NCBI RefSeq assembly: GCF_007830055.1
Contig: NZ_VLLE01000002.1
Coordinates: 1-64,000, forward strand
Length of the DNA: 64,000 bases
Source of the DNA: Lacibacter cauensis
Lineage (GTDB): Bacteria > Bacteroidota > Bacteroidia > Chitinophagales > Chitinophagaceae
Direction of reading: 5' to 3'
The notes under the pieces were generated by a model that made no database searches, was not told where the DNA came from, and saw only the letters and a program-made list of their open reading frames with translations. Below are positions 17,531-26,126 of the stretch, piece after piece; within the stretch, counting starts at the first letter, position 1; the number at the start of each line of letters is the position of its first letter. Position numbers and translations under genes: made by a program.

Positions 17531-17557
17531 TCTACTTTCCGTCTAATTTTATAGCGC

Positions 17558-18553
17558 ATGAAATTTCTAATCATCCGTTTCAGTTCCATCGGCGATATTG
17601 TGTTAACCACGCCTGTTGTGCGTTGTTTAAAACAGCAGGGAATTGGTGCTGAAGTACATTTTCTTACCAAGTTCAGTTTTCAGAAAGTAGTTGCATCAAA
17701 TCCGTACATCGATAAGTGTTATTATCTCAACAACGATTGGGAGCTGCTAATGCATGAATTGAAAGAAGAGAACTACGACTACATCATTGATCTGCACAAC
17801 AACATCCGCACCTTAAAAATTAAACGGGAGTTGAAAGTAAAAGCATTTGCTTTCAACAAACTGAATGTGCAGAAGTGGCTGCTTACGAATTTAAAGATCA
17901 ACCGTATGCCGGCTGTGCATATTGTGGATCGTTATCTCGATACAGTAAAATCATTTGGCATCAAGAACGATGGTAAGGGATTGGATTATTTTATTCCGCA
18001 GGAAGAAGAAACCAAACAAAGCGATCTGCCGCATTCGCATTACTTAGGTTATGTTGGCTTAGTGATTGGTGCTGCACATGCAACCAAACGCTTACCTGCC
18101 CAACAGTTAAAGAAACTCTGTTCGTTATTACATCATCCCATCATCTTACTGGGCGGACCCGAAGACAAAGCAACCGGTGATGAAATAGCAGCTGTTGATC
18201 CGGTGAAGATTTACAATGCCTGCGGTAAATTTTCAATTAACGAAAGTGCCGACCTGGTGCGTAAAGCTAAACTCATCATTACACACGATACCGGCTTAAT
18301 GCATATTGCAGCTGCCTTACACAAACCCATCATCAGCGTATGGGGCAACACGGTTCCTGCATTTGGTATGACGCCGTATTACGGCAATAAGCAAGTGCGG
18401 CATGTACAATTCGAAGTAGATGATCTTGGCTGCAGACCTTGTTCTAAAATCGGTCATGACAAATGCCCGAAAAAACATTTCAAATGTATGCAGCTGCAAG
18501 ATGTAGAAGCAATAGCAGCAACTGCACAAGCTTGGGCAAAAGAATTACGGTAA
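17558..18553 (+). CDS. glycosyltransferase family 9 (heptosyltransferase-like)
   Basis: 331-residue GT-B glycosyltransferase of family GT9, the group that adds heptose to lipid A-core. The N-terminal nucleotide-sugar fold starts MKFLIIRFSSIGDIVLTTP, the typical GT9 opening. The C-terminal half has THDTGLMHIAAALHKPIISV (about 243-262), the GT9 donor-site block. The acceptor cannot be told, but hldD (33280) in this window supplies ADP-heptose, so LPS core assembly is the likely context. The gene converges on mdh and shares its terminator. Confidence 0.87.
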   Translation: MKFLIIRFSSIGDIVLTTPVVRCLKQQGIGAEVHFLTKFSFQKVVASNPYIDKCYYLNNDWELLMHELKEENYDYIIDLHNNIRTLKIKRELKVKAFAFNKLNVQKWLLTNLKINRMPAVHIVDRYLDTVKSFGIKNDGKGLDYFIPQEEETKQSDLPHSHYLGYVGLVIGAAHATKRLPAQQLKKLCSLLHHPIILLGGPEDKATGDEIAAVDPVKIYNACGKFSINESADLVRKAKLIITHDTGLMHIAAALHKPIISVWGNTVPAFGMTPYYGNKQVRHVQFEVDDLGCRPCSKIGHDKCPKKHFKCMQLQDVEAIAATAQAWAKELR

Positions 18554-20742: not shown

Positions 20743-22695
20743 ATGCCTTTTTTAATTGAATACCTGCTGAAAGTTTCGATTGCACTTGCACTGGTGTATT
20801 TATTTTATCAATTGGTGCTGCGCAGGCTAACTTTTTATAACTGGAACAGGTGGTACCTGATCGGATATTCGGTGTTGAGTTTTGTGATACCCTTTATGAA
20901 CATTACCGATTTCCTGTTCAAGCACGAACTGGATGAAGCACAGTTTGTGCAAATGGTGCCTGTTTATCATTTAAATCTCACTGCAACGGGCGCAGGCTTT
21001 GAATGGAACAGCTGGAATATTGCCATTGTGATTTTACTTGCCGGTATGTTGGTGATGGGGCTGCGTATGCTGTTACAGTTTTTCAGTTTGCGCAAGATGA
21101 AGGCGAAAGCAAAGTTGCTGAACGAAGGAGACATCAGACTCTTTGATGTTGAGGATAACATTATGCCCTTTTCTTTCAGCAATGGCATTTACATTAACAG
21201 TAAACTGCATACAGAAGCTGAGCTGCAAGAGATCATCCGCCACGAGTTTGTGCATGTAAAACAAAAGCACAGCATTGATATTTTATTTGCCGAATTACTG
21301 TGTATGCTGTTATGGTTTCATCCCGCAGCATGGCTTATCCGTAAAGCAATCCGTCAGAACCTTGAATTTATTGCCGACGAAAAAGTATTACAGGATGGTG
21401 TTGATAAAAAGCAATACCAATACCTATTGCTGAAAGTAGTAGGCTACAATCATTACAGCATTGCATCCAACTTTAATTTCTCATCACTTAAAAACCGAAT
21501 CATCATGATGAATCAAATCAAATCTGCCCGCGTGCAGGTCATTCGTTTCTTGTTTATACTGCCGCTGGTGGCAGTATTGTTACTGGCCTTTAGAGAAGTA
21601 AGACAAAAAGAACAGCGTAAAGATTTTCAACAGCAATTACTGTTGAGCGATACCATACCTGCCAGCGAAATTGCATCTGTAAATGTGAATAAGAATGGCG
21701 ATGAAAAAACAATTACCATTATTCTAAAAAACGGAACAACGGATACCTATAACCTGAACGATCCGAAACAAAAAGAAGCGTTTGAAAAGAAGTATGGCAA
21801 AGTTGATCAACTTGCGCCACCTCCGCCACCGCCCCCGGCAGTCATTCAATCGGATGAAGTAGAAAGGGTAGATGTGACCAAAGCAAACGGTAAAGGCATT
21901 ATCCGCATCCGTTTAAAAAACGGCACTGTAGAAACCTTCGATTTAAACAATGAAAAGGATAAAGAAACATTGCGTACAAAATATAAATTTAGTACAGCTG
22001 GGTCTTCTTCATCAACAAATTCATCTGGCAATAAAAACCTGGCTATAACTGTAAAGCCTGCAAAAGAAACGGTAAAGCTAAACAAGAAAGGATATTATGT
22101 AAGCATTGCCGATGATATGGGTGAGTGTGTAGTAATTGTAAAAGACAAGAATAAAAAAATTATAGAGGCATTAAAGTTAACAGACTGGAATGCAGCTGAA
22201 GCAAAATACGAAGCGAAGTATGGCGAAATTCCTCCCCCTCCACCACCGGCTCCATCTGCTCCGGTAACCGTAGTAGGTTATCCATCACCTGTATCTTCTC
22301 CCGCAGCTATTACTGTAGAGGGCAAGCCTGCAACGATTACTGTTACAGAAGCAACATCTCCTGTAAAAGAAGTAACAGTTACCGGATATAAAAAAGTAGT
22401 AGGTACCGCCACAATAGATACCGATGTTAAAACCACCACAGCTGCAGAACCGGGTGTGGTTACTGTAGTGGGTTATGGCAAATCGACCAAAGAGTCTGGA
22501 AACATAAAGCTTAAAAAAGGTATTGATAACGTTTTGTATATATTGGATGGTAAAGAAGCAACGTCCGAGGATATCAATGGCCTTGATCCAAATACCATTG
22601 AAAGTATTTCTGTTTTAAAAGATGATAATGCCGTAAAACTGTATGGTGAAAAAGGAAAGAACGGAGTAATTATCATTAAAACAAAAAAGAAATAA
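20743..22695 (+). CDS. M56 (BlaR1-like) sensor metallopeptidase with C-terminal TonB-plug-like domain
   Basis: 650 residues. About four membrane helices frame the M56 peptidase domain. The zinc site is HEFVH (His167, Glu168, His171), with NLEFIADEKV (about 206-215) as the third-ligand region. A last helix (about 265-285) leads to an extracytoplasmic part of about 365 residues: two NG-T-x-YNLN type repeats separated by Pro runs, a GYYVSI segment, a second Pro run, then TVVGYG and VTGYKK motifs and a final block ISVLKDDNAVKLYGEKG-KNGVIII, which resembles the plug start of SusC-type TonB receptors. It would sense a signal outside and inactivate the BlaI protein encoded just upstream. The C-terminal domain suggests contact with outer-membrane or TonB components; this is inference. 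Confidence 0.85.
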   Translation: MPFLIEYLLKVSIALALVYLFYQLVLRRLTFYNWNRWYLIGYSVLSFVIPFMNITDFLFKHELDEAQFVQMVPVYHLNLTATGAGFEWNSWNIAIVILLAGMLVMGLRMLLQFFSLRKMKAKAKLLNEGDIRLFDVEDNIMPFSFSNGIYINSKLHTEAELQEIIRHEFVHVKQKHSIDILFAELLCMLLWFHPAAWLIRKAIRQNLEFIADEKVLQDGVDKKQYQYLLLKVVGYNHYSIASNFNFSSLKNRIIMMNQIKSARVQVIRFLFILPLVAVLLLAFREVRQKEQRKDFQQQLLLSDTIPASEIASVNVNKNGDEKTITIILKNGTTDTYNLNDPKQKEAFEKKYGKVDQLAPPPPPPPAVIQSDEVERVDVTKANGKGIIRIRLKNGTVETFDLNNEKDKETLRTKYKFSTAGSSSSTNSSGNKNLAITVKPAKETVKLNKKGYYVSIADDMGECVVIVKDKNKKIIEALKLTDWNAAEAKYEAKYGEIPPPPPPAPSAPVTVVGYPSPVSSPAAITVEGKPATITVTEATSPVKEVTVTGYKKVVGTATIDTDVKTTTAAEPGVVTVVGYGKSTKESGNIKLKKGIDNVLYILDGKEATSEDINGLDPNTIESISVLKDDNAVKLYGEKGKNGVIIIKTKKK

Positions 22696-23426: not shown

Positions 23427-23993
23427 ATGGCAACTACATCAGACATCAGTCGTGGTATGATCATCAAGCAAGACGGCAGCTTGTATAAAATTGTGGAGTT
23501 TGGCGAAAACAAAACAGCCCGTGCAGCCGCAAAAGTTTGGGCTAAATTAAAAGGTGTTGATAATAATCGCTCCATAGAAGTTACATGGAACAGTGGTGAA
23601 ACCATTTACCCGGTTCGTGTAGAACGCCACGATTTCCAGTTCTTGTATAAAGACGATACCGGCTATAACTTCATGAACAATGAAAGCTTTGAGCAGATTG
23701 CTGTTCAGGAAGCGGTGATTGATGCTCCCCAGTTTTTGAAAGAAGGTGATACCGTATCGGCTCTCATCAATACAGAAACCGAAATGCCGATGAGCATTGA
23801 GTTGCCCGACAAAATTGTGGTGAAAGTTACTTACAGCGAACCTGGTGTAAAAGGCGATACGGCTACCCGTACGTTAAAGGCAGCTACCATTGAAACAGGT
23901 GCAACTGTAATGGTGCCTTTGTTTGTAAACGAAGGCGAATTGATCCGCATTAACACCAAAACTGGTGATTATGTGGAGCGTGTAAAAGAATAA
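23427..23993 (+). CDS. efp: elongation factor P with an arginine-type tip loop
   Basis: 188-residue EF-P, which binds between the P and E sites and rescues ribosomes stalled at consecutive prolines. All three beta-barrel domains are present, and the C-terminal signature TEPGVKGDTA is read here as SEPGVKGDTA. The domain I tip loop normally reads PGKG with a modified Lys34. Here it reads NKTARAAAKVWAKLKG, with Arg32 (codon 23520-23522) at the tip. That closely resembles the NKSGRNAAVVKMKLKN loop of Pseudomonas EF-P, where Arg32 is rhamnosylated by EarP. No EarP-like gene is seen in the window. The gene has its own promoter and terminator. Confidence 0.96.
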   Translation: MATTSDISRGMIIKQDGSLYKIVEFGENKTARAAAKVWAKLKGVDNNRSIEVTWNSGETIYPVRVERHDFQFLYKDDTGYNFMNNESFEQIAVQEAVIDAPQFLKEGDTVSALINTETEMPMSIELPDKIVVKVTYSEPGVKGDTATRTLKAATIETGATVMVPLFVNEGELIRINTKTGDYVERVKE

Positions 23994-24173: not shown

Positions 24174-24668
24174 ATGGATTTTAAACAAATTCAGGAACTT
24201 ATTAAATTGGTTAACAAATCCAACCTCAGTGAACTCACCATCGAAGAGAAAGACTTTAAGGTTACTATAAAACAAAAAGACGAAATCATTCAGCAAACTG
24301 TTATTTCAGGACAGTTCCAGGCTGCACCTCAGGCGCTGCCTACTGCAACGGCACCAGCTGCAATTCCTGCTGCTGCAAGTGCGGCTCCCGCAGCACCTAA
24401 AGCCGGCGGCGGAGAAGATACCAGCAAGTATGTAACAATTAAGAGCCCGATGATCGGTACTTTCTACCGTAAACCTGCACCCGACAAGCCATTGTTTGTT
24501 GAAGTTGGTACAGAAGTAACACCCGGCAAGGTTGTTTGCATTATCGAAGCCATGAAGTTGTTCAACGAAATTGAAAGTGAAGTAAAAGGTAAAATCGTGA
24601 AGATTCTGGTAGAAGATCAGTCACCTGTTGAATACGATCAGCCTTTATTCCTGGTAGATCCCAGCTAA
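24174..24668 (+). CDS. accB: biotin carboxyl carrier protein of acetyl-CoA carboxylase
   Basis: 164-residue AccB, the biotin-bearing subunit in malonyl-CoA synthesis. An N-terminal interaction region (about 1-45, starting MDFKQIQELIKLV) is followed by an Ala/Pro-rich linker (about 55-85) and the biotinyl domain. The biotinylated Lys is in the EAMKLFNEIE motif (about residue 128). GTFYRKPAPD in the domain is typical. accC follows after 120 bp of hairpin-rich spacer. TATCTTAG at 24130-24137 is a near match to a -7 element. Confidence 0.95.
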   Translation: MDFKQIQELIKLVNKSNLSELTIEEKDFKVTIKQKDEIIQQTVISGQFQAAPQALPTATAPAAIPAAASAAPAAPKAGGGEDTSKYVTIKSPMIGTFYRKPAPDKPLFVEVGTEVTPGKVVCIIEAMKLFNEIESEVKGKIVKILVEDQSPVEYDQPLFLVDPS

Positions 24669-24788: not shown

Positions 24789-26126
24789 ATGTTTAAAAAG
24801 ATATTAATTGCCAACCGTGGTGAGATTGCGTTACGTATTATACGTACCTGCCGTGAAATGGGCATCAAAACGGTTGCTGTTTATTCAACTGCAGATCGTG
24901 AAAGTCTTCATGTAAAATTTGCCGATGAAGCAGTTTGTATTGGTAAGCCTGCAGGTGCAGAATCGTACCTCAACGTACCCAACATTATTGCTGCTGCTGA
25001 AATTACCAATGCCGATGCAATTCATCCCGGCTACGGTTTTTTAGCTGAGAATGCAAAGTTTGCTGAAATATGCGGACAGAACGGCATCAAGTTCATTGGT
25101 CCAACTCCTGAGCAAATCCGTTTAATGGGTGATAAAGTAACAGCTAAGGAAACCATGATCAAAGCAGGTGTTCCTGTTGTGCCTGGTGGACAAGGTTTGT
25201 TGCCGAGCCTCGAAGAAGCCAAGCGTATTGCAAAAGAAATTGGTTACCCTATTATCTTAAAAGCAACTGCAGGTGGTGGTGGTAAAGGTATGCGTGTTGT
25301 GTGGGCCGAAGAAGACCTGGAGCGTAACTACGATATGGCGAAGAATGAAGCTGCTGCTTCATTTAAGAATGATGGTATTTATATGGAGAAGTTCGTAGAA
25401 GAACCCCGCCATATAGAAATCCAGGTAGCCGGCGATCGTTATGGAACTGTTTGTCACCTGAGTGAGCGTGATTGTTCTATCCAACGTCGTCACCAGAAAT
25501 TGGTAGAAGAATCTCCTTCTCCGTTTATGACTCCCGAACTGCGTAAAGCAATGGGTGATGCGGCGAAGAAAGCTGCGTCTGCTATTAATTACGAAAGCGT
25601 AGGTACCATCGAGTTTCTTGTTGACAAACACCGCAACTTCTACTTCATGGAAATGAACACACGTATCCAGGTAGAACATTGCGTTACAGAAGAAGTAACC
25701 AATTTCGATTTAATTAAAGAGCAGATTCTGATTGCCATGGGCGAAAAGATCAGCGGTTTGGATTACGAACCTGAGATGCATGCCATTGAGTGCCGTATCA
25801 ATGCAGAAGATCCTTACAATGATTTCCGTCCATCACCCGGTAAGATTACTACATTGCATCAGCCTGGTGGTCATGGTATCCGTATCGATTCGCATGTGTA
25901 TGCCGGTTATGTGATTCCTCCTTACTACGATTCTATGATTGCAAAAATTATTGCAGTTGCACGTACACGTGAGGAAGCTATTAACACCATGAGCCGTGCA
26001 TTAAGTGAATATGTAATTGAAGGAGTGAAAACAACGATTCCATTCCATCAGCAACTCATGAAAGATGAAAACTTCCGCAAAGGAAATTTCACTACCAAGT
26101 TTTTGGAAACGTTCCAGATGAAGTAA
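24789..26126 (+). CDS. accC: biotin carboxylase of acetyl-CoA carboxylase
   Basis: 445-residue AccC, which carboxylates biotin on AccB using ATP and bicarbonate. The order of domains is the biotin-carboxylase N-domain ([17 protein letters not shown] at the start), the ATP-grasp domain with the glycine loop [11 protein letters not shown] (about 158-168), and the C-domain. Catalytic segments [10 protein letters not shown] and [12 protein letters not shown] are present. The length matches the usual 445-450 residues. It ends with a strong terminator shared with the convergent glutamine synthetase gene. Confidence 0.96.

Follow-up and report, generated by a model that had tools for sequence, protein, structure and literature searches.

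How an elongation factor P (EF-P) with an arginine at its tip could work in a member of the Bacteroidota was the question raised by the window, the whole 64,000-nucleotide stretch of Lacibacter cauensis DNA analysed here. The efp gene lies on the forward strand at 23427..23993 and encodes 188 amino acids; it was recognised from its open reading frame and from Pfam and TIGR profiles, and is the sole EF-P match in its own genome (search at E ≤ 10). The EFP_N, EFP OB and C-terminal domains all scored above the Pfam gathering cut-offs, and the TIGR00038 'efp' model gave 197.7 bits against a cut-off of 185.8. An earlier note on this DNA had read an arginine at position 32, in the tip loop that usually carries a lysine, and this reading was borne out: the codon, CGT at 23520..23522 (forward strand), lies within a complete three-domain protein. 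The same note had supposed that the organism acquired the EarP pathway, in which this arginine is rhamnosylated, uses another arginine modifier, or works with an unmodified arginine.

An AlphaFold model of the protein (mean pLDDT 86.8, pTM 0.65, from a 27-row alignment) predicted that residues 29-35 (KTARAAA) form a seven-residue turn between strands 18-28 and 36-43. In this model Arg32 sits in the middle of the loop, with no proline two positions before it, and a fold search with the model returned EF-P structures as its top matches, with that of Thermus leading by E-value. The remodelled tip region, NKTARAAAKVWAKLKG, comprises 16 residues (23508..23555, forward strand), delimited from the translation, an alignment of 141 loci and the predicted model. 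It includes the codon for Ala31 (23517..23519, forward strand), a position at which the lysine-tip (K-type) and EarP-linked EF-Ps that were compared carry glycine. In length the loop equals NKSGRNAAVVKMKLKN of Pseudomonas aeruginosa EF-P (3oyy), and it aligned without gaps with two EarP-linked EF-Ps, as the earlier note had claimed. The likeness to the Pseudomonas type was limited to part of the loop and did not extend to domain I overall, where identity to the EarP-linked EF-Ps was 0.25, the same value that the K-type EF-Ps of the order show to the EarP-linked ones.

The earlier note had treated the arginine tip as a feature of this organism, which proved too narrow, as Thr-Ala-Arg occupied positions 30-32 in all of the Chitinophagaceae loci compared. 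These 141 loci, the window gene included, comprise 80 named contigs (the best 80 of 447 relatives) and 61 loci from a separate collection of genomes, and the two collections may share species; the loop was read in 60 of the 94 family genomes with an EF-P match, and one further locus came from another search. N28, K29, T30, A31, R32, K36, W38 and A39 were invariant (141/141), and this constancy rules out chance or a sequencing error as the origin of the arginine tip. Exactly one EF-P match was found in 94 of 98 family genomes and none in the other four, three of which are less than 90% complete (the fourth, G056, is at 97%). A second, Lys-type efp, which the earlier note had named as evidence against its reading, was sought in the Lacibacter genome at E ≤ 10 and was absent.

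Outside the family, 74 distinct loci from other families of the phylum (as grouped by the search tool) comprised 68 with a lysine tip (KPGKG), five with an asparagine tip and a single one, L194, with Ala-Arg. Identity to the window protein was 60-100% among the family members found, the nearest species-named genome being that of Lacibacter luteus (97%), a genus belonging to the Chitinophagaceae; the best match outside the family was 55% identical. The family boundary of the arginine tip is thus sharp. The asparagine-tip EF-Ps (L147, L167, L168, L169 and L170) come from other groups of the phylum and have loops such as NPGNWRAF and TPGNLRAF. Two or three EF-P matches each were seen in seven genomes of another family (f3) of the class (G193, G211, G234, G249, G324, G469 and G485).

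The idea of an acquired EarP pathway found no support in genome searches. The EarP family model PF10093 matched neither the Lacibacter genome (0/1), nor any of 117 Chitinophagaceae genomes, 107 of which are at least 90% complete and clean, nor any of 395 genomes of the phylum, some genomes being present in both the family and the phylum sets. As PF10093 also matched none of 14 built-in control genomes, a positive control set was built from five of nine plasmid-collection records (Pseudomonas, Shewanella, Pseudoalteromonas, Ilyobacter and Variovorax); all five were detected, with scores from 532.3 bits down to two partial Variovorax matches of 56.4 and 44.4 bits, and earP lay directly before efp in 4/4 annotated control loci. 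Several records of this plasmid collection, among them Escherichia and Proteus records of 4-5 Mb, are of whole-chromosome size and apparently mislabelled. A profile built from the EarPs of the four annotated control loci, used without a control of its own, likewise gave no match in the Lacibacter genome at E ≤ 10. EpmA, for which the earlier note had advised a genome search, was not found either: the best match of E. coli EpmA was lysyl-tRNA synthetase (TIGR00499, 615.9 bits), which reached only 238.2 bits with the EpmA model against a cut-off of 286.9. The same query gave two weak matches to a second, longer frame, taken to be another, putative aminoacyl-tRNA synthetase. With no lysine at the tip and no single-domain EpmA found in the genome, the protein falls outside the Lys-type, EpmA-modified EF-Ps.

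That Arg32 is rhamnosylated by an EarP so divergent that these searches missed it appears extremely improbable. Such an enzyme would fit the arginine tip, the lack of a proline at the -2 position and the gapless match to the EarP-type loop, and overproduced EarP was able to modify even poor substrate variants completely in vivo, according to an excerpt of PMC6544042. Yet both profiles came back empty, even though PF10093 gives 330.6 bits on an EarP as distant as that of a fusobacterium, and the residue before the arginine argues against EarP as well. Position 31 is alanine in 141/141 Chitinophagaceae loci and glycine in 4/4 EarP-linked EF-Ps, and the window EF-P therefore lacks the Gly-Arg pair that goes with efficient action of EarP in vitro. 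In P. putida EF-P the G31A exchange reportedly lowered in vitro rhamnosylation to less than 1% of the wild-type rate, and position 31 is reported to be of functional importance; this block is an effect on rate, the variant being modified in vivo with overproduced EarP (excerpt of PMC6544042). The same exchange is described there as abolishing the function of E. coli EF-P and harming that of P. putida EF-P, so that the Chitinophagaceae loop would need compensating changes.

The Ala-Arg pair is found elsewhere. The pattern HVKP[G/A]RGxA, searched in 396 genomes of the order, gave six matches, all of them EF-Ps and all Ala-Arg, with no Gly-Arg among them; they span three genus groups and two sister families. 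A first version of the KPARG pattern, run on 395 genomes of the class, had given four matches, none of them EF-P. The KPARG EF-Ps (L280, L281, which is the L194 gene, L282, L283, L284 and L285, from genomes G988, G641, G1070, G1082, G557 and G574) carry an arginine tip in an otherwise Lys-type loop in which the proline at -2 is kept. This is a rare combination; a proline accompanies 2.33% of arginine tips in the figures quoted from PMC6544042. On a careful tree the Ala-Arg pair required four changes, the one in the Chitinophagaceae included (bootstrap unsettled), and a single origin of the Ala-Arg rows of the sister families was not rejected (p 0.319). In the loop of E. coli EfpL, SPTARGAAT, Arg33 was found by mass spectrometry to be unmodified (excerpt of PMC11611912); our search for EfpL diversity in the plasmid collection was uninformative, with enterobacterial EfpL only among the 40 listed of 84 records. 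The occurrence of Ala-Arg in the Chitinophagaceae, in two sister families and in EfpL raises a possible sequence rule for arginine EF-Ps that are not EarP substrates. The Thermus EF-P has Gly-Arg in its loop (KLGRGGA), so Gly-Arg need not mean EarP, and the comparison of sequences suggests that the rule, if real, runs one way, from Ala-Arg to no EarP.

The origin of the tip was approached through the surroundings of the gene. In the window, efp is followed on the forward strand by frames at 24174..24668 and 24789..26126, which we take to be accB (biotin carboxyl carrier protein) and accC (biotin carboxylase), both conserved in the neighbourhood comparison. An accB homologue was present within the efp stretch in 131/140 Chitinophagaceae loci and 23/30 other loci, stretches ended by a contig edge being scored as misses. 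Both groups share this order of efp, accB and accC, which makes a rebuilding of the tip in place most likely. Domain identities, computed with every fourth family row and with five genomes of the order counted twice, agree with a local change: loop identity between the family and the K-types of the order was 0.32, against 0.82 between those and other K-types, and domains II and III gave 0.51 and 0.60 for the first comparison and 0.47 and 0.58 for the second. The differences thus lie mainly in domain I, and most of all in residues 26-62.

The alternative is that domain I, or the whole of efp, was acquired horizontally from a different lineage of the arginine type. The family loop is indeed closer to that of Thermus (0.44) and to those of the four EarP-linked EF-Ps (mean 0.41) than to the K-types (0.32), but over the whole of domain I the family shows no greater likeness to Thermus (0.36) or to the EarP-linked EF-Ps (0.25) than to the K-types (0.35), and the accB-accC neighbourhood is conserved. 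In the careful tree (77 rows, loop columns excluded) the Chitinophagaceae formed one clade (100/99) among the Bacteroidota rows, and the EarP-linked EF-Ps formed a clade elsewhere in the tree. A grouping of the family with Thermus was rejected on this tree (AU test, p 0.014), though it had not been on a quick tree (p 0.555), and a Thermus-type origin was set aside. Joining the family with the EarP-linked EF-Ps as one clade was not rejected (p 0.255), so that the tree by itself does not settle the question of ancestry. On the quick tree this joining had the higher likelihood (p 0.901), and one clade of the family with the K-types of the order was rejected (p 0.0026), the K-types themselves being scattered. 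Better trees had escaped the quick search, and for the groupings with Thermus and with the EarP-linked EF-Ps its tests were replaced by those on the careful tree. Horizontal transfer is, on this evidence, unlikely, and synteny and tree together speak most for a change of the tip in place.

The proposed sequence of events is then that the window efp would be an ordinary, vertically inherited EF-P of the Chitinophagaceae, in which the tip half of domain I was probably rebuilt in place at the stem of the family, from KPGKG to KTARA. The same remodelling would have brought Trp38 and an arginine behind the GDT motif of domain III, Arg148 (23868..23870, forward strand). A comparison of rows showed residue 148 to be basic in 142/142 Chitinophagaceae rows (140 Arg and 2 Lys, the window gene being counted twice), Lys in 4/4 EarP-linked EF-Ps, and Asn, Gly or Ser in 68/68 K-type rows. 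Counter-examples are the Lys in one of the five asparagine-tip rows, the Gly in Thermus, which has an arginine tip, and the Asn in the KPARG rows. With few independent changes, a coupling of a basic residue 148 with the arginine tip is suggestive only, as judged from aligned rows. Residue 148 of the window EF-P aligns with residue 149 of E. coli EF-P, in which the E-site codon is contacted by residues 144-148 and, as docking suggests, by residues as far as 151 (excerpt of PMC11611912). With its added positive charge in domain III, the Chitinophagaceae EF-P might bind more strongly around the E-site codon.

The window EF-P combines an arginine tip with a genome in which EarP was not detected, the combination for which an unmodified arginine has been proposed in Thermus, and we infer that the Chitinophagaceae Arg32 tip probably works unmodified. 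Reports on other arginine EF-Ps speak both for and against this. The unmodified EF-P of N. meningitidis is reported to work weakly on its own ribosome (excerpt of PMC4739656), and those of P. putida, S. oneidensis and N. meningitidis are reported as inactive or inhibitory on E. coli ribosomes (excerpts of PMC6544042 and PMC4739656).

A possible but doubtful alternative is that the Chitinophagaceae lineage evolved or acquired an arginine modifier, an undescribed enzyme unrelated to EarP that acts on the Thr-Ala-Arg tip and for which the invariant NKTARAAAKVWA tip would be the recognition site. The strict conservation of N28-R32, K36 and W38 would suit the recognition surface of an enzyme. A modifier would also be in keeping with what is reported in the excerpts of PMC6544042 and PMC4739656, where overproduced E. 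coli EF-P retains roughly half of its activity when its modifier is absent and EarP-type arginine EF-Ps lose nearly all activity on E. coli ribosomes. However, nothing resembling a modifier gene sits next to efp in the family, in contrast to the annotated EarP loci, where earP is adjacent. Clustering of the neighbours of the 141 family loci found no constant extra gene beside efp other than accC (124 loci) and accB (120 loci); the next commonest were two genes in 58 and 55 loci, presumably malate-dehydrogenase-like and redoxin-like, and all others occurred in at most 34, so that a modifier gene next to efp was rejected. A gene at 17555-18550 of the window recurs upstream of efp in 26/141 family loci, although only 56 of the loci reach its median distance of about 5 kb. 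We take it to be glycosyltransferase-9-like, which could speak for a modifier, but by its motif it seems to resemble the common LPS heptosyltransferases, and the gene is inconstant beside efp.

A small test gave no sign that proline runs are depleted in the family. Nineteen 20-kb stretches from the family contained 12 PPP in 111,221 aa and 20 stretches from sister groups contained 13 in 116,445 aa (Mann-Whitney p 0.42), the comparison covering 39 stretches with mechanically called reading frames, one of the sister stretches coming from the Ala-Arg genome G641. In the window, the reading frame at 20743-22695, presumably a BlaR1-like membrane protein, has runs of seven and six prolines, and by its translation its product is likely to be a strong client of EF-P. 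Conservation of the protein, its single copy and proline runs that are not fewer would be consistent with a role in polyproline translation.

Set beside known systems, the Chitinophagaceae EF-P shares with the EarP-type proteins of P. putida, P. aeruginosa, S. oneidensis and N. meningitidis the seven-residue loop with an arginine tip and no proline at -2, and a basic residue behind GDT in the four rows examined. It differs from them in that EarP was not found in its own genome or in the family and phylum samples, in having alanine rather than glycine before the arginine and alanine rather than asparagine after it, and in domains II and III and an accBC neighbourhood of the Bacteroidota kind. 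With the Lys-type (KPGKG) EF-Ps of sister Bacteroidota it shares this neighbourhood and these two domains, whereas their tip is lysine, their loop is 0.32 identical and their residue 148 is Asn, Gly or Ser.

Close parallels are arginine tips without a known modifier, as in Thermus, Borrelia and Deinococcus; Deinococcus is not known to have EarP. In Thermus, Arg32 of EF-P is said to contact C75 of the tRNA, and it has been argued that the ribosome can adapt to unmodified EF-P (excerpt of PMC2821294); the Thermus protein differs from that of the Chitinophagaceae in its Gly-Arg loop, and a grouping of the two was rejected on the careful tree. Deinococci and Borrelia have EF-Ps with arginine, Borrelia being described as without EarP in the excerpt of PMC4739656. 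The Thr-Ala-Arg tip is shared with EfpL/YeiP of E. coli, the one with an arginine unmodified by mass spectrometry, but the EfpL loop is two residues longer, has a conserved proline upstream and belongs to a protein that accompanies a Lys-type EF-P. The window protein is no member of that group: it scored 92.7 bits with TIGR02178 against a cut-off of 264.05, has a seven-residue loop and is present without a second copy.

Arginine EF-Ps without EarP have thus already been described in other lineages. Among the matches listed in the open-access literature on EF-P of Bacteroidetes, Bacteroidota or Chitinophagaceae and on the transfer of EF-P, which covers the field in part, there was no description of a Chitinophagaceae EF-P, and within the literature searched both the occurrence throughout the family and the Ala-Arg pattern appear to be new. 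They bear on whether an arginine-tip EF-P can work without modification: on E. coli ribosomes, proteins of the EarP type do not work when left unmodified, whereas Thermus and EfpL suggest that it is possible. The Chitinophagaceae are a large family in which to test this, with several named isolates, a single-copy EF-P where one was found, EarP undetected and a strictly conserved tip, and they can show whether EF-P functions without chemical decoration.
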